Shown in pieces: positions 2,323-19,015 of a DNA stretch of 64,000 nt. Below the pieces are notes generated by a model, which did not search any database, was not told the DNA's origin, and saw only the letters and a program-made list of their open reading frames with translations. Source of the DNA: Rhodothermales bacterium (GTDB lineage Bacteria; Bacteroidota; Rhodothermia; Rhodothermales; JANQRZ01); NCBI GenBank assembly GCA_028284265.1, contig JANQRZ010000007.1, forward strand, positions 62,001-126,000, given 5' to 3'. The translations under genes were made by a program, and so were the position numbers. Every line of letters starts with the position of its first letter. Within the stretch, counting starts at the first letter, position 1.

Positions 2323-3009
2323 ATGAAGACTCTCTCGCTCCTCGCGCTGCTGCTGGCCGTGCCCGCCGCGGCCCAGACCTATTCCGGCACCCTCGAAGAC
2401 GGCGACGCCGCCCGCGACTTCGGCGAACTCTACGACGCCTACACCTTCGAGGCCCAGCAGGGGCAGGAGGTGGTCGTCCACCTCGCAGGCGAGGGCGGGC
2501 TTGACACCTACCTCATCGTCCGCTCGCCTTCCGGGGCGGAATGGACGAACGACGATTTCGAGGGGGCGAGTATCTCGCAAGTCACCCTCGTGGCGAGTGA
2601 GGCCGGAACGTGGACCGCGTGGGCTTCCGGGTTCAACAACGCCCAGCGCGGCAACTACGAACTGACCATCACGCTCGGCGGCATCGCCGAAGTCACGACC
2701 ATCGAGGGCCGCCTCGATCCGAGCGATAACCAGACGATTAAGGGTGAGTACGTCGATACAATGACGATTGACGCGCCCTCGTCCGGTCGCTTCACGGTCG
2801 AGCTGATCTGCTTCGGCTTCGACGGGTTCCTGCGCGTCACCTCGCCGAGCGGCCAGCACTGGCGCAACGACGACGCGGGGTCGACGGATGTCTCCCGGAT
2901 TGAGAACCTCATCGGCGCGCCCGGTGAGTGGACGGTGGACGTGACGACCGTCAGTCCGGAAGAGGTCGGGGCCTATGATGTCCGCGTGCTCGTCTTCCCC
3001 GAGCGCTAG
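2323..3009 (+). CDS. Secreted protein with two PPC-like beta-sandwich domains
   Basis: 228 residues. The N-terminus (residues 1-17, ending PAAAQ) is a Sec signal peptide. The mature protein is two tandem repeats of about 100 residues. Each contains a pattern of the pre-peptidase C-terminal (PPC) domain: YDAYTFEAQQGQEV, then LDTYLIVRSPSG with NDD in the first, and DGFLRVTSPSG with NDD in the second. PPC domains are usually accessory modules of secreted proteases. Here no catalytic domain is attached, so the protein is probably a periplasmic or surface accessory protein of unknown role. It is convergent with uvrC, and the two coding regions overlap at the stops (3006-3009). Confidence 0.75.
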   Translation: MKTLSLLALLLAVPAAAQTYSGTLEDGDAARDFGELYDAYTFEAQQGQEVVVHLAGEGGLDTYLIVRSPSGAEWTNDDFEGASISQVTLVASEAGTWTAWASGFNNAQRGNYELTITLGGIAEVTTIEGRLDPSDNQTIKGEYVDTMTIDAPSSGRFTVELICFGFDGFLRVTSPSGQHWRNDDAGSTDVSRIENLIGAPGEWTVDVTTVSPEEVGAYDVRVLVFPER

Positions 3010-4877
3010 GATATCTCACTTTCGGGTGTGGCTTTGCCTTTCTGCGTGCGGAAGTAGCCGTGGACCTTGCTTGCAATACTCGGCCCTACCACTTCGGCGA
3101 GTGCTTCTTCGGGTGCGGTTCTGACGCGCTTGACGGAGCCGAAGGTCTGGAGCAGCTTGCGCGCCGTCTTCGCGCCGACACCGTCGATCTCTAGTAGCTC
3201 GGTGTGGAGGTTGGTCTTCGCACGCTGCTTGCGCTGGGCGGTGACGGCGAAGCGGTGTGCCTCGTCGCGGACGCGCTGCAACAGCCGGAGTGCCGATGAG
3301 GTGCGCGGGATCAGGATCGGCTGGCTGTCGCCGGGGACGAAGACCTCTTCGAGCCGCTTCGCGAGGCCGACGACCGGGAACTTGCCGTAGACGTCGACCG
3401 CCTTGAGCGATTCGACTGCCGACGAAAGCTGGCCCTTGCCGCCGTCGATCACGACGAGGTCGGGCCAGGGGCCGTTCTCTTCGAGCGTCCGCCGGTAGCG
3501 CCGCTGGATCACCTCGCGCATCGACTGGAAATCGTCGGGCTTACCCTGCTCGACCGTGCGAATCTTGAACGTCCGGTAGTCGCCCTTCTTCGGCTTACCG
3601 TTCTCGAAGACCACGCAGCTTGCGACCGTGCCGGTACCGCCGAGGTGGGAGACATCGAAGCACTCGATCCGGCGGGGAAGGTGCTTCAGGCGGAGATCAC
3701 GCTGGAGCGACTGGACGGAACGCGGCACCCGGTCGGCATCGGCCTTCGCTTTCTGCAAGGACCACTCGCCGAGGAGCAGGCGGGCGTTGGCCTCAACCAT
3801 CCGCAGCAGGCTTGCCTTGTCGCCGCGCTCCGGGACACGCAGTTCGACAATGCGGCCCCGGCCCTCGCGGACGACCGCTTCGAGCGGCTCGGGGTCACAT
3901 GGTGTATGACTGAGGAGCACCTCGTCGGGGAAGAACGTCGCTTCGGTGTAGTGATCTTCGAGGAGCCGCTGCATCAACTCCGACTCTTCGACGCCTTCGA
4001 TGGGCCGGAGCACCTTGTGCCGCCGCCCGATGATCTTGCCCTCGCGCATCGTGAACAGCACGCCGATAGCGACGTCTTCCTCGCGGTCGAGCGCGAGTGC
4101 GAACAGGTCGCGGTCGGCCCCGTCCTCGGCGACAATCTTCTGCTTCGACGAGTACGCTTCGATCGCTGCGATCCGGTCGCGGTAGGTGGCTGCCTCCTCG
4201 TACTGCTTCTCGGTAGCGAGGCGCTGCATCTCGTCCTTCAGGAGGGCGAGCAACTCCTTCGTCTTCCCATTGAGCAGCTTCTCGATCTGCCGGATCGTGC
4301 TGTTGTAGTGCTCCTCCGTCTCGTAGCCGACGCACGGCGCGGCGCACTGCTGAATGTGGTAGTCGAGGCACGGCTCGAACTTGCCCGCTTCGATGTTGGC
4401 CTCCGACAGATAGAGGGAGCACGACCGGAGCTTGAACAGGTCCTTGATGGTCTTGAGCATCACCTTCATGGTCTTGACGTCGGTGTACGGACCGAAGTAT
4501 TTGCTGCCGTCCTTGCGGACCTTGCGCGTCGGGAATACGCGGGGAAAACGCTCGTTCTTGATGCAGATGTAGGGGTAGGACTTGTCGTCCTTGAGGAGGA
4601 TGTTGTAGCGTGGCTGAAGCTGCTTGATGAGGTTGTTCTCTAGGATCAGCGCCTCGGCCTCGGTGTCGGTGACGATGATCTCGACATCCTCGATTTTCGA
4701 GACGAGAATCCGCAGCCGCTTGTCTTTGGGGCGACCCTCCTGGAAGTAGCTCCGCACCCGGTTGCGCAGATTCTTCGCCTTGCCGACGTAGAGCACGGTG
4801 CCCTTGGTGTCCTTGTGCTGGTAGACGCCGGGGGCGGTCGGGAGGTGGGCTAGTTTGCTGGCGAGCGCGTCGGTCAT
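3006..4877 (-). CDS. uvrC: Excinuclease ABC subunit UvrC
   Basis: 623 residues from the ATG at 4877. This start leaves the GIY-YIG domain (TAPGVYQHKD, then VLYVGKAKNLRNRV) close to the N-terminus, as is usual. An in-frame ATG at 4925 would add 16 residues. Domains in order are GIY-YIG nuclease (~10-95), Cys-rich middle, UVR domain (~205-245, EEAATYRDRI), RNase H-like endonuclease (with DVSHLGGTG and VIDGGKGQLSSA), and a C-terminal helix-hairpin-helix pair (LEIDGVGAKTARKLL). UvrC makes both incisions around bulky DNA lesions together with UvrA and UvrB, which are not in this window. Confidence 0.97.
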   Translation of the reverse strand: MTDALASKLAHLPTAPGVYQHKDTKGTVLYVGKAKNLRNRVRSYFQEGRPKDKRLRILVSKIEDVEIIVTDTEAEALILENNLIKQLQPRYNILLKDDKSYPYICIKNERFPRVFPTRKVRKDGSKYFGPYTDVKTMKVMLKTIKDLFKLRSCSLYLSEANIEAGKFEPCLDYHIQQCAAPCVGYETEEHYNSTIRQIEKLLNGKTKELLALLKDEMQRLATEKQYEEAATYRDRIAAIEAYSSKQKIVAEDGADRDLFALALDREEDVAIGVLFTMREGKIIGRRHKVLRPIEGVEESELMQRLLEDHYTEATFFPDEVLLSHTPCDPEPLEAVVREGRGRIVELRVPERGDKASLLRMVEANARLLLGEWSLQKAKADADRVPRSVQSLQRDLRLKHLPRRIECFDVSHLGGTGTVASCVVFENGKPKKGDYRTFKIRTVEQGKPDDFQSMREVIQRRYRRTLEENGPWPDLVVIDGGKGQLSSAVESLKAVDVYGKFPVVGLAKRLEEVFVPGDSQPILIPRTSSALRLLQRVRDEAHRFAVTAQRKQRAKTNLHTELLEIDGVGAKTARKLLQTFGSVKRVRTAPEEALAEVVGPSIASKVHGYFRTQKGKATPESEIS

Positions 4878-4971
4878 CGGGGAAGCAGTCGGACGGAGGT
4901 GCGGTACCCGTTTTGCTGAATCCATGATCCCGGAGAGTTAGCTCTGGGTTTGCCTCCTCAACTCTTTACAC

Positions 4972-5045
4972 GTCATCCCCGCGAAGGCGGGGACCCACCG
5001 GCCAGCAATACCTGTGGGTCCCCGCCTTCGCGGGGGTCGGGATGA
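4972..5045. repeat. REP-like palindrome (GTCATCCCCGCGAAGGCGGGG type)
   Basis: The left arm at 4972-4998 and right arm at 5014-5045 form a perfect 22-bp stem (CCCCGCGAAGGCGGGGACCC at its core) around a 15-nt loop, flanked by GTCAT and ATGAC. The motif resembles a repetitive palindrome found in many GC-rich bacteria. It sits upstream of uvrC and downstream of the GNAT gene. It has no U-tract, so it is not an obvious intrinsic terminator. Confidence 0.8.
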
Positions 5046-5069
5046 CTTTACTCCTACGGGGCGAGATTA

Positions 5070-5669
5070 TCAGCGAAAATCCACTGGGTCGCGCAGCATG
5101 GCCCAGTGGTCCGGCCCGTAGGGAAGCGGGATGGTGCCCGTCACGCGGAACCCATGCCGCTCGTAGAAGGCAACGTTGCGCTCGGTGCCCGTTTCGAGAT
5201 AGACCGGCCAGCCCTCGCGGTCGGCGCGGTTCAGCCCCGACCGAATCAGCGCACTGCCGACGCCTCGACCCTGTGCCTCGGGCGCGACGGTGAGCGTGCC
5301 GAGGTACAGCATCGGCTCATCGGGGAAGAACGCATCGAAGGCGGCATAGTCACGAAAGGCGATCCAGAACTGTCGCCAGCCGACGGCACGGAAGAGCGTC
5401 GGGATGAGCAGCTTTTCACGCCAGCCGAGCGAGTCAACGTGGTCGGGCGGTATCCAAAGCGCGACGCCCTCCAACTCGTCGGTCGTCTCCGCGATGCCGA
5501 AGGGGAGGTAGATGCGGCGGAGGTAGGCGCGGTACTCAATCCGCAGCCCGCGTCGCCGCCGGGCCTTGTCGGGGTAGAGGTGGACGAAGAGCGGGTCGTC
5601 ATGGAACGCATCAGCGATGACGCCAGCGGCGCGTTCTACATCGGATGTAGTGAGCCGACGAACCGTCAT
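5070..5669 (-). CDS. GNAT-family N-acetyltransferase
   Basis: 199 residues. The GNAT acetyl-CoA-binding motif A is clear near residues 125-140: LGTLTVAPEAQGRGVGSALI, the Q/RxxGxG/A pattern. It is followed by motif B-like YLETGTERNVAFYERHGFRV (residues ~155-175). The N-terminal ~100 residues carry the acceptor-binding half and do not identify the substrate. The ATG overlaps the TGA stop of the upstream epimerase-hydrolase gene (ATGA at 5666-5669), which suggests translational coupling. Confidence 0.88.
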   Translation of the reverse strand: MTVRRLTTSDVERAAGVIADAFHDDPLFVHLYPDKARRRRGLRIEYRAYLRRIYLPFGIAETTDELEGVALWIPPDHVDSLGWREKLLIPTLFRAVGWRQFWIAFRDYAAFDAFFPDEPMLYLGTLTVAPEAQGRGVGSALIRSGLNRADREGWPVYLETGTERNVAFYERHGFRVTGTIPLPYGPDHWAMLRDPVDFR

Positions 5670-13611: not shown

Positions 13612-13696
13612 GCCGGGGTGGTGAAATGGTAAACACAGCAGACTTAAAATCTGCCGGTCCGTACGGGCCTTGCGGGTTCAAGTCCCGCCCTCGGCA
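13612..13696 (+). tRNA. tRNA-Leu (anticodon UAA)
   Basis: Cloverleaf read by eye. The acceptor stem is GCCGGGG (13612-13618) with CCTCGGC (13689-13695) and discriminator A. The anticodon stem is GCAGA/TCTGC around the loop CTTAAAA (13643-13649), giving anticodon TAA. A long class II variable arm follows (CGGTCCGTACGGGCC), and the T arm contains GGGTTCAAGTCCC. Class II shape and UAA anticodon both indicate leucine. The 3' CCA is not encoded (ACTCA follows). Confidence 0.95.
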
Positions 13697-15551: not shown

Positions 15552-16931
15552 TCAGCCGAACTCTTCCTTCAGCGCGTTGATCTCCTCATGGAAGGCCGCG
15601 ACGAGGGCGTCGGGGTCAGGGGCCATCTTGGCGTCGGTGGCGATGCCGAGCATGACCTCGCCCGCATAGCTGATCACGCTGACGCCGAGGCCGATGTCGC
15701 CCGCGCGTGGCACCCAGAACATGATGCGGCGGAGCGGATTGCTGTAGAAGTGAAGCTTCTCGCGCGGCCCCGGTACGTTGGTCACGACGGCAGAAACCTT
15801 CGACGAGAGGATATCGACGACCTGTCCGTGCAGTAGCTCTGGCCCCGCCCCGATGGCTTGCAGGATGCCGAAGGCGACGGCGGGTTCGGCGGAGCTTTTG
15901 ATGATGTCCATCCGCCGCTTGATCTCCAGCAGTCGCTCCCGCGCATCCGCGATCCCGATGGGGAGGGAGAGGAAGACGAGGCCGAAGACGTTGCCGAGGT
16001 CGAACGCCCGCTCGTAGGGCCGGAGGTTGACCGGGATCACCGAGCCGATCTCGATGTTGCGAGTCGGTTCGCGGTGTCCTCGTAGGTAGCGCCGGAGCGC
16101 GCCCGTCACGGCGGCCATCAGCACGTCGTTCAGTTTGCCGCCGACGCCGTGGGCGATGGCCTTCACGTCGTCGAGCGGGAGCGGGACGGACCACGCCACG
16201 CGCTTGACGACTGTCGCCGGAGCCTTGAAGCGGGTCTTCGAGTCCGACGACATGAGTGCGATCTTGCTCGCCGCCGCGCCGATGCTCATGCCCTGCCGCG
16301 CTAGGTCGAATGCCTTGCCCGGATGCTGGATCGCGTCGAGGCTGCCGGTGATGGCACCGGCAGCCACCTTGCCAAGTCCGTCGATGGTTTTCCCAGCGCG
16401 GCGAAGAAGACGGTCGGCGAGGCTTTCATCCGACCGCTCACGCCCGTAGCTCGGTGTGGCCCGCGCCGGGTCGAACATCTCATCGGCCATCGCGAGGAGA
16501 ACGTGGATCAGCGCAATTCCGTCGCCGATAGAATGGTGAAGTCGCCCGATGAGCGCGCTGCCGCCGTCATACTCTTCGATCAGATGGAACTGCCACGGTG
16601 GCTTCGAGAAATCGATGGGTGTGCTCATCAGCTCGCTCACCAGCTCTTCGAGCGAGGCCTTGCTGTCCGGCTCGGCGAGACCTGCGCGGTGAACGTGCGC
16701 GTCGATGTCGAAGTGGGGGTCGGTCTCCCACATCGGCGTGCTCCCCGAATAGACCACACGCTGCCGGAAGCGCTCGAAGATCAGCAGGCGCTCCTCGACG
16801 AGTCGCTTCAAGTCGTCCAGCGCCATCGGTTCGTCGAAGCCGATGATGCCGACGATGGTCATCGGGTTGACGGAGGACTCCATGCGGAGCCAGGCCACGT
16901 CGGCGGCACCGAGTTTCTGCCTGCGAGCCAT
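15552..16931 (-). CDS. Wax ester synthase / diacylglycerol acyltransferase (WS/DGAT)
   Basis: 459 residues from the ATG at 16931. The catalytic HHxxxDG motif is intact at residues 132-138 (HHSIGDG). Other family signatures are PLDDVK near the middle, GGKLNDVLMAAVTGALRRYL, and a C-terminal VVTNVPGPREKLHFYSNP. The enzyme condenses acyl-CoA with a fatty alcohol or diacylglycerol to make wax esters or triacylglycerol at the inner membrane. It faces the SCP2 and phasin genes. Its upstream side is the large gene-free region at 16.93-18.14 kb. Confidence 0.94.
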   Translation of the reverse strand: MARRQKLGAADVAWLRMESSVNPMTIVGIIGFDEPMALDDLKRLVEERLLIFERFRQRVVYSGSTPMWETDPHFDIDAHVHRAGLAEPDSKASLEELVSELMSTPIDFSKPPWQFHLIEEYDGGSALIGRLHHSIGDGIALIHVLLAMADEMFDPARATPSYGRERSDESLADRLLRRAGKTIDGLGKVAAGAITGSLDAIQHPGKAFDLARQGMSIGAAASKIALMSSDSKTRFKAPATVVKRVAWSVPLPLDDVKAIAHGVGGKLNDVLMAAVTGALRRYLRGHREPTRNIEIGSVIPVNLRPYERAFDLGNVFGLVFLSLPIGIADARERLLEIKRRMDIIKSSAEPAVAFGILQAIGAGPELLHGQVVDILSSKVSAVVTNVPGPREKLHFYSNPLRRIMFWVPRAGDIGLGVSVISYAGEVMLGIATDAKMAPDPDALVAAFHEEINALKEEFG

Positions 16932-17022
16932 GGGAGAGCGGGTGAATGGGGAAGGGCCGGGGCGCAATCTAACGCGGCGAGTGGTTTGGAAGCGCAGGTG
17001 CGCTGGGTCGGATCGTATGACT

Positions 17023-17044
17023 GTTATTGTATTGTAAAGTTTAT
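17023..17044. other. AT-rich patch before the DnaA-box cluster
   Basis: GTTATTGTATTGTAAAGTTT followed by AT is one of the most AT-rich stretches in this GC-rich spacer. It also resembles a degenerate copy of the CCGTTATTGCAA repeat. Confidence 0.35.
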
Positions 17045-17090
17045 AACCGAAAGCGCGGTGGGAGGAGGTCTCATGACGGTGGACTGTTAT

Positions 17091-17099
17091 TGTGGATAA
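17091..17099 (-). promoter_or_regulatory. DnaA box (TTATCCACA)
   Basis: Exact consensus DnaA box on the minus strand (TGTGGATAA on +). First of three same-orientation boxes within 217 bp. Confidence 0.6.
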
Positions 17100-17106
17100 C
17101 TATTCG

Positions 17107-17137
17107 TTTGAACCGAGGGGTGGCCTGTGTATCTTCA
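17107..17137 (+). promoter_or_regulatory. Candidate promoter, TTTG-N19-TATCTTCA
   Basis: TTTG at 17107 and TATCTTCA at 17130 fit the Bacteroidota TTG / TAnnTTTG arrangement with one mismatch. It would start a transcript near 17143, running through the structured region to the terminator at 18075. An alternative sigma70-like pair is TTGACT at 17324 with TTAATT 17 nt later. Confidence 0.35.
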
Positions 17138-17275
17138 GAGCACCTCATGCTGCCAGAGAAGAGGTCGTCCAATCGGACCGTACCTCACAGTCGCGTCACT
17201 GAAAAGCCTGACCCCAGTGGTTGGGCTTTTCGGCCCAGGGCGGAAATGGTCCGGCGATACCCCGTGCCGAGAGGG

Positions 17276-17284
17276 TGTGGATAA
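17276..17284 (-). promoter_or_regulatory. DnaA box (TTATCCACA)
   Basis: Second exact consensus DnaA box, same orientation as the one at 17091. Confidence 0.6.
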
Positions 17285-17298
17285 TTCTCTCGATAAGT

Positions 17299-17307
17299 TG
17301 TGCATAA
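17299..17307 (-). promoter_or_regulatory. DnaA box (TTATGCACA)
   Basis: Third box, matching TTATNCACA, 14 bp from the second and in the same orientation. Confidence 0.55.
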
Positions 17308-17355
17308 CTCGGCGGGGCGTGGTCTTGACTTCACGGTTTCTACGCAGTTAATTGG

Positions 17356-18075
17356 ACGCAGTGCTTTCGGGCACACGCCGCCAACGAGGCTTGCCTCGGA
17401 CGCAGCGGCTGCCTCCGGAGCTTGCTCCGAGCAGCGACGTTCCTTGACGCGACTGAAGTTCTCCAGGCTGCATGAGGTCGCCGGTATGGTTCCGGCGAGG
17501 ACACGACTTCTTCGATACGCCTAGTCTGACTTGTCCTTGCGACAAGCGCGCACCCTCGCGGTGAGCGAACGACCAGAAACGACGAAGGATGTCAGATAAG
17601 TCCAGCGCCCCGAGTAGGCCGGTTCAACCGGACGAAAGAACGCGATGGCAGATGCCTCGCCGACGTGATGGGCTTACGGCGTGACTCGCTCACGACGCAG
17701 GCCGTTCACATCCATCCCGGAGAAAATGTGTCTGGGCGGCAGTTGATTGAACGTGGTACTTCGGTACCGCACCAGTTGACAACAGCACAGGGCGACTACG
17801 TCGTGCTACGCTGTGTGCCGCAGCATGTGGACCACGTTTACCGAGATGCTCTGCATCTCATCAAACAGGTGGCCGCTGCAAGAGCCAGCCCGCCCTTTTG
17901 TCCGGCGTTGGTTTGGGAGGAGGTCTGACGACCAGAACCCCGAAGCGACCCGTTCCGACGTATGTCGGTTTCCGGCCATGCGTCGGAGGATGCTTTCGAG
18001 CTGACGAAAGAAGGGCTGTCGCGTCAGGAACTACTTTCAGCGGGTCGGTGCCTCGGGTACCGGCCCGCTTTTTTT
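17356..18075 (+). ncRNA. Large structured noncoding RNA candidate, family unknown
   Basis: No convincing protein frame exists here, but the + strand has a dense series of strong hairpins. Examples are GTGCT-TTCG-GGCAC (17361), CGAGG-CTTG-CCTCG (17385), CGGAG-CTTG-CTCCG (17416), TCGCCGG/CCGGCGA (17478), CTTGTC/GACAAG (17530), CCGG-TTCAA-CCGG (17619), CGTGA-CTCGC-TCACG (17680), GTGGTAC-TTCG-GTACCGC (17753), GAGATGC-TCT-GCATCTC (17843) and CTGACG/CGTCAG (18001). CUUG and UUCG tetraloops are hallmarks of selected RNA structure. The series ends at an intrinsic terminator (18039-18075). The start is uncertain: about 17143 or about 17356, giving 720-930 nt. I found no RNase P signature (GAGGAAAGUCC) and no tmRNA tag, so those identities are not supported. 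Confidence 0.6.
18039..18075 (+). terminator. Intrinsic terminator of the structured RNA
   Basis: An 11-bp stem, AGCGGGTCGGT with ACCGGCCCGCT (one G-U pair), encloses a 9-nt loop and runs into seven T. It lies 68 bp before the pssA start, so it ends an upstream transcript rather than pssA. Confidence 0.88.
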
Positions 18076-18142: not shown

Positions 18143-19015
18143 ATGGACGATCCCTCCGCTCCGCAGCCGCTCGAATCCCCGCCCGGTTCGCCTTCCGGGT
18201 CGCGCCCGCGCGGGCCGATGCTCCGTCAGCGGCGGCGGGTGATCAGGGGCGTGCCCCCCGTCGCCGTGCCAAGTTTCTTCACGCTGATGAACCTGCTCAG
18301 TGGGTTCTTCTCGATCATCCAAACCTCGGCAGGCAACCTCGAAGCGGCGGCGTGGCTCGTCGTCCTCGCGGCGTTCTTCGACCTGCTCGATGGGTTTATG
18401 GCGCGCCTCGCGCACGTCTCCTCGGACTTCGGGCTGGAGCTTGACTCGCTCAGCGATGTGGTTTCGTTCGGGGTGGCCCCGTCGTTCCTGCTTTACGAAT
18501 TCGGTCTCGACCAGCTCGGACCGATGTGGGGTGGACTCTTGGCGAGCCTACCTGCGCTCTTCGGGGCCGTTCGTCTCGCCCGGTTCAACACGATGACGAC
18601 CTCGGACGAGAAGCAGGGTTATTTCACCGGTTTGCCGATCCCGGCGCAGGCGGGGACGGTCGTCGTGTTCATCCTCACCTTCGCGGATTCGTCATGGTTC
18701 GATGTGCTGGAGCGCCGCCAGATTTCGGTGCTCATCACGCTTGTGCTCGTGCTGTCGGCGCTGATGGTGTCGCCGGTCCGCTTTCAGGCACTGCCGCAGC
18801 CGACTCGGGCAAATCTTCGGGCTTATCCCTACCGGTTCTTAGCATTCGGCCTCGGTCTGTTGCTGACGCTCGTGGGCGAGGTCGTCTTCCGTGCGGGTGA
18901 GGTCGGCCTTCTCATCTCGGCGGTCGTGTATCTTGCCCTCGGAATCGGTGGGGCGATTCGCTGGGCGATTCGTGCTGCCTCTGATCCCGACAACGACCCT
19001 TCGTCTGACTTCTGA
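18143..19015 (+). CDS. pssA: CDP-diacylglycerol-serine O-phosphatidyltransferase
   Basis: 290 residues from the ATG at 18143. A Pro/Arg-rich cytoplasmic head (1-40) is followed by a CDP-alcohol phosphatidyltransferase domain. The DGxxAR-x8-G-x3-D-x3-D signature is intact: FDLLDGFMARLAHVSSDFG, then LELDSLSDVVSFG. Six or more membrane helices are present. It makes phosphatidylserine, the precursor of phosphatidylethanolamine. A TATCTTTC box 12 bp before the ATG suggests a promoter with a very short leader, independent of the upstream RNA. purS and clpS follow closely on the same strand. Confidence 0.95.
   Translation: MDDPSAPQPLESPPGSPSGSRPRGPMLRQRRRVIRGVPPVAVPSFFTLMNLLSGFFSIIQTSAGNLEAAAWLVVLAAFFDLLDGFMARLAHVSSDFGLELDSLSDVVSFGVAPSFLLYEFGLDQLGPMWGGLLASLPALFGAVRLARFNTMTTSDEKQGYFTGLPIPAQAGTVVVFILTFADSSWFDVLERRQISVLITLVLVLSALMVSPVRFQALPQPTRANLRAYPYRFLAFGLGLLLTLVGEVVFRAGEVGLLISAVVYLALGIGGAIRWAIRAASDPDNDPSSDF

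Follow-up and report, generated by a model that had tools for sequence, protein, structure and literature searches.

In the window, that is, the whole 64,000-nt stretch of Rhodothermales contig JANQRZ010000007.1 that was analyzed, the interval 17143–18075 was flanked by a WS/DGAT gene on the minus strand (15552–16967) and by pssA, which starts with an ATG at 18143, encodes a product with the Pfam domain CDP-OH_P_transf, and is followed by purS. A protein product of the interval was rejected: the preliminary description had seen no credible protein frame there, and none of its open reading frames was broadly conserved among relatives. The three hairpins named in that description were located at their claimed places (CGAGGCTTGCCTCG at 17385–17398, CGGAGCTTGCTCCG at 17416–17429, and GTGGTACTTCGGTACCGC at 17753–17770), as was the terminator with seven T at 18039–18075. 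The proposal of one RNA of approximately 720–930 nt was borne out in part. A length of about 720 nt was the right size for a large RNA, because this RNA starts near 17360, whereas a single 930-nt RNA was wrong, because 17143 lies where a separate small RNA starts, which has a terminator of its own at 17202–17230. The interval therefore holds two RNAs rather than one.

The small RNA gene (approximately 90 nt; 17141–17230, plus strand) was delimited using a covariance model, and its start was placed from the −10 element. It consists of one strand of the predicted intermolecular helix H2 (CCTCATGCTGCCAGAGAA, 17143–17160, with 17143 as the first paired base), a hairpin at 17161–17186, one strand of the predicted intermolecular helix H1 (CAGTCGCGTCA, 17188–17198), and an intrinsic terminator (AAAAGCCTGACCCC..TTGGGCTTTT, 17202–17230). 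The terminator was a stem with a T-rich tail in the aligned members, and its T-run was only four in the window. The covariance model comprised 26 members, the small RNA of the window included, and the latter matched it at 54.8 bits (E 1.8e-13); matches to the terminator alone were common and were left out of all counts. Upstream of the small RNA, the motif CTGTTATTG was found at 17021–17029 and again at 17084–17092, adjoining the promoter, and a putative −10 element (TATCTT), whose position is conserved in relatives, was found at 17130–17135. Nearly all relatives had two copies of this motif, as CCGTTATTG or CTGTTATTG, ahead of the small RNA, and many of them showed CCGTTATTG, a few bases, TTGC, approximately 17 bases, and TATCTT. 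The order of elements in relatives was two CCGTTATTG, TTGC-N17-TATCTT, CACCTCATGCCGCCTGGA, hairpin, ACTCAGTCGCG, (TATGGGCAC), and terminator. The conserved placement suggests that both copies are candidate regulator sites of the small RNA, and the motif is probably bound by a transcription factor. DnaA-box-like TGTGGATAA boxes were also observed upstream of the RNAs, at 17091–17099 and 17276–17284.

The large RNA gene (approximately 715 nt; 17360–18075, plus strand) had an invariant 5′ core in relatives. A putative promoter (TTGACT, 17 nt, TTAATT) was located at 17325–17353 on the plus strand, and near-consensus elements (TTGAC/TATAAT) occupied the same place in relatives; a simple consensus scan of the window made no call there. 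The second TGTGGATAA box (17276–17284) lies upstream of this promoter, where most relatives carry TTGTGGA(T/A) just 5′ of the −35 element. The RNA begins with a hairpin (GTGCTTTCGGGCAC, 17361–17374) that was found in most relatives, often as GTGCCTGACGGCAC. It is followed by the 5′ strand of a predicted closing helix, P1 (GTTCCTTGACGCGA, 17439–17452), by the large RNA strand of H1 (TGACGCGACTG, 17445–17455), which overlaps P1, and by the large RNA strand of H2 (TTCTCCAGGCTGCATGAGG, 17459–17477). The 3′ strand of P1 (TCGCGTCAGGAAC, 18019–18031) precedes the intrinsic terminator, and was identified from the minimum-energy fold and from relatives. Folding of 17358–18075 on the plus strand gave a minimum free energy of −329.2 kcal/mol, with a z-score of −9.13 against dinucleotide shuffles; the minus strand of the same segment gave −5.18, and two equally long coding controls, one from each flank, gave +0.49 and −0.78.

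The preliminary description of a large, structured, and unassigned RNA ending in a terminator was thus supported by the fold and by the comparison with Rfam 15, in which none of 4227 families matched the RNA interval at its gathering score; relaxed thresholds yielded chance-level matches to the terminator only. A tRNA gene at 13612–13696 was the sole Rfam match of the whole window. RNase P and tmRNA, for which the preliminary description had also found no match, were both located elsewhere in the genome (G000). The RNase P RNA lies on contig C19 (233 bits) and the tmRNA on contig C16 (163 bits), and the window contained neither RNase P RNA nor tmRNA in one or two pieces. The comparison made there with OLE, GOLLD, and ROOL RNAs held for size only; their Rfam covariance models gave no gathering-score match and none at E values up to 5. 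A phage or mobile origin was rejected, as no match was found in the phage records or viral contigs searched. A replication origin, hinted at by the TGTGGATAA boxes and, in family f5, by a neighboring parB, was likewise set aside as less likely: the RNA lies at 193 kb of the Roseithermus record, and the gene neighbors differ in the family of the window. The literature searched did not describe any comparable RNAs from Rhodothermales, an absence that is weak evidence.

To describe the distribution of the two RNAs, we compared the locus with related genomes. A blastn search of the spacer against 60 relatives recovered a 40-base core (17439–17482 of the window) in many families of the order, with a near-consensus promoter (TTGAC ... 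TATAAT) and the 5′ hairpin upstream and, in many loci, a terminator several hundred bases downstream. Scanning 84,980 GTDB species for TTGACGCGACTGA-N2-14-CATGAGG yielded 31 loci. One belonged to Roseithermus sacchariphilus, of which the cultured strain MEBiC09517 (CP030158) is a carrier, and two came from unrelated genomes, an Actinomyces MAG and an Altererythrobacter, which are probably chance matches. The remaining loci were in MAGs titled Rhodothermales, Rhodothermia, Rubricoccaceae, Bacteroidetes, or "bacterium", most of them genomes of the order that had already been searched. Because nearly all scan loci fell in MAGs so titled, the RNA family appears to be confined to Rhodothermales. 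Covariance matches in other orders of the class were weak or restricted to the terminator and were rejected, as were those in Rhodothermus and Salinibacter, which looked false on inspection.

Both RNAs occurred together, each in a single copy, in 54 genomes of 11 Rhodothermales families, a count that omits two genomes of family f14, which were searched for the small RNA only and gave a match to it. No genome with only one of the two was seen in fuzzy searches for the core combined with the covariance search for the small RNA. In most families, the pair was located downstream of a rhomboid gene, many with a convergent HAD hydrolase gene opposite, and in f5 parB lay a few genes beyond it. In the family of the window (f1) and in f12, the pair was instead located before pssA. 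The HAD gene directly followed the rhomboid gene in G000, G032, and Salinibacter; this arrangement, seen at loci L171, L172, L174, and L175, represents the site without the cassette. The pssA site in f1 and f12 and these empty rhomboid–HAD sites indicate that both genes were relocated or lost jointly. The cassette was absent from several lineages (R. marinus, Salinibacter, f15, f4, and f10) and is therefore not universally needed. In one locus of f12 (L093 in G059, g32), the stretch from the small RNA to the core of the large RNA contained numerous AGCTTCGGCT-like hairpins in tandem.

Comparison of the two RNAs showed that their conserved segments were reverse complements of each other. In H2, CCUCAUGC.GCCUGGA of the small RNA was complementary to UCUAGGC.GCAUGAGG of the large RNA, with one fixed mismatch position in most loci, and in H1, ACUCAGUCGCG of the small RNA was complementary to CGCGACUGAGU of the large RNA. 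We evaluated H1 and H2 jointly in 49 distinct pairs, using gapless anchoring in which complementarity played no part. True partners had 1250 of 1519 cells paired, compared with a mean of 1227.6 (sd 4.4, maximum 1245) over 5000 permutations of partners, none of which (0/5000) was as high as the true value. This permutation ignores relatedness, and individual compensatory changes therefore weigh more. For H2, three genomes of f13 showed such a change from C-G to U-A, and two genera of f2 showed one at a different position; changes from A-U to C-G were observed in H1 in G012 and at the end of H1 in f2 (g29). Both the conservation and the compensatory changes that the preliminary description had proposed to look for in relatives were thus found, and the most informative changes were between the small and the large RNA and not within the large RNA. 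To judge from this complementarity, the two RNAs probably join into one complex. RNAcofold, which ignores kinetics and proteins, formed H1, the small-RNA hairpin, and H2 in the minimum-energy complex of 13 of 13 representatives, the window included, in which 17143–17160 paired with 17459–17477 and 17188–17198 with 17445–17455. In this predicted complex, H1 and H2 flank the hairpin of the small RNA, which becomes the third arm of a U4/U6-like three-way junction.

A third contact, H3, was suggested in most families, in which the small RNA carried AUGGGCA(C), complementary to the loop of a hairpin (CGUGU-GCCC-AUGCG) in the 3′ half of the large RNA. Compensated changes were observed at three loci: L151 (UGUCCAUG/CAUGGACA), L112 (GCUCAUG/CAUGAGC), and L043 (AUGCCCAU/AUGGGCAU). 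Permutation of partners among loci with the common motif was not significant (246 of 5000 permutations reached the observed value), because nearly all of these loci are alike. Apparent H3 matches at L016 and L020 were inside terminators and were dropped. In f1 and f12, the small RNA was without the H3 motif (matching GGGC), and the hairpin at 17810–17824 of the window, which is degenerate, presumably corresponds to the kissing hairpin of relatives.

Within the large RNA, the invariant 5′ segment was also complementary to UCG(C/U)GUC(A/G)(A/G)GGAA immediately 5′ of the terminator, giving the closing helix P1. This helix formed when the large RNA of the window was folded to minimum energy, and it also appeared in the consensus of f5. 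By an automatic criterion, 35 of 48 loci had the best partner of the 5′ 15-mer immediately ahead of the terminator; several others showed the P1 motif, but no terminator was found there within the limits set. P1 itself displayed little covariation, because its 5′ strand is nearly invariant. The bases UGACGCGA were common to H1 and P1, and in the window GUCGCGUCA was common to the H1 strand of the small RNA and the 3′ strand of P1. Since the same 5′ segment takes part in both helices, binding of the small RNA should open the closed form; in the cofold predictions, none of the 13 representatives retained P1. Such dual pairing would explain the near-invariance of the 5′ segment of the large RNA.

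These data suggest a small-RNA-gated conformational switch in a heteromeric two-RNA complex, in which pairing of the small RNA and formation of P1 would be mutually exclusive. The large RNA would fold into a closed form, with its 5′ segment (GUUCCUUGACGCGA) paired to its own 3′ end before the terminator. The small RNA, expressed from its own promoter, would pair with the same 5′ region, by H1 over CGCGACUG and by H2 over GGC.GCAUGAGG, and its hairpin would separate the two helices to give the three-way junction; in most families, it would also touch the apical loop of the downstream hairpin through H3. As H1 and P1 would use the same bases, with the H1 strand of the small RNA mimicking the 3′ strand of P1, binding would open P1 and free a purine-rich 3′ arm of the large RNA. 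Speculatively, the switch might expose or hide the purine-rich GGGGAGG that precedes the P1 strand. We give the switch roughly an even chance of being correct, which makes it the most likely of the readings considered, followed by a permanent two-piece RNA and then by a sponge or antisense pair.

In the second of these readings, the small RNA would be a permanent subunit of one ribonucleoprotein, as in a split RNA, with no alternation between P1 and H1 in vivo. Three contact sites spread across the large RNA, the co-occurrence of both RNAs, and the fact that the two genes moved together to the pssA site in f1 and f12 would all be expected under such an arrangement. We nevertheless consider it unlikely, as P1 is conserved and competes with H1 and as the promoters look differently regulated, with the CCGTTATTG pair found only at the small RNA. 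More doubtful still is a relationship in which the small RNA acts as a regulator of mRNAs and is titrated by the large RNA, or in which its sole role is to repress or destabilize the large RNA. The small RNA has the size and the terminator of a regulatory RNA, and bacteria are known to have sponge RNAs that base-pair with sRNAs (PMC12559287), but a folded body of 700 nt with a conserved closing helix exceeds what a sponge needs. Moreover, when 114 genomes were searched for further exact 12-base copies of the pairing segments, such copies occurred at about the control level and thus gave no support for a seed common to many mRNAs; this test is weak and covers exact matches only.

Because the complementary segments are ordered as an inverted repeat on one strand, approximately 250 bases apart, the small RNA could also be the 5′ leader of a single transcript of about 930 nt, with H1 and H2 formed in cis, or the repeat could act in DNA through recombination or as a cruciform. 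Both versions appear very improbable. The small and the large RNA are each equipped with a promoter-like element and a terminator, from which we infer separate transcription, and in relatives a terminator and a promoter lie between the segments, with widely varying spacing. In the f14 genome G015, the two RNA genes are approximately 2.3 kb apart (L111, about 2770–5140), which speaks against an obligatory common transcript. Pairing at the DNA level is disfavored by the core positions of H1 and H2, at which G-U cells exceeded A-C cells by 37 to 8, as expected for RNA pairing and not for an inverted repeat in DNA.

A dedicated pair of a small and a large bacterial RNA joined in this manner was not found in Rfam or in the literature searched, and there may be work on it that is unpublished or not openly accessible. 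Among large bacterial RNAs whose function is unknown, those best known have been described as single species or homo-oligomers. OLE, GOLLD, and ROOL are large structured bacterial RNAs that form homo-oligomers through intermolecular RNA contacts (PMC12286853). The Rhodothermales large RNA resembles them in its size, in its structured nature, and in its intermolecular contacts, which are predicted here; unlike in these homo-oligomers, its partner would be a second dedicated RNA, and the pair is chromosomal, was not found in the phage and viral collections searched, and has no Rfam match. With pairs of sRNAs and sponges, it shares conserved base-pairing in trans between two non-coding RNAs, and differs from them in its large folded partner with a closing helix, its up to three contacts, its adjoining genes, and its co-inheritance. 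Two RNAs must also pair in order to act in two-piece tmRNA and in tracrRNA–crRNA. In contrast to the former, a normal tmRNA is encoded elsewhere in the genome, and in contrast to the latter, no repeats match the pairing segments, for which the large RNA is the only recurrent site.

The arrangement predicted for the complex, in which a hairpin of the small RNA sits between the two helices that connect it to the large RNA, is reminiscent, by analogy only, of the U4/U6 snRNAs, in which two helices flank a hairpin of one partner and one partner later exchanges its pairing. The system described here differs from U4/U6 in being bacterial, in having a partner of approximately 715 nt, and in that the alternative partner would be the 3′ end of the large RNA itself, and there is no evidence of a common origin or of splicing. 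Because evolution indicates the partner, the contact bases, and the competing fold, the function of this RNA is directly approachable with a few mutants. If the proposed switch is true, the pair would represent a bacterial counterpart, in principle, of the exchange of RNA partners in the spliceosome.
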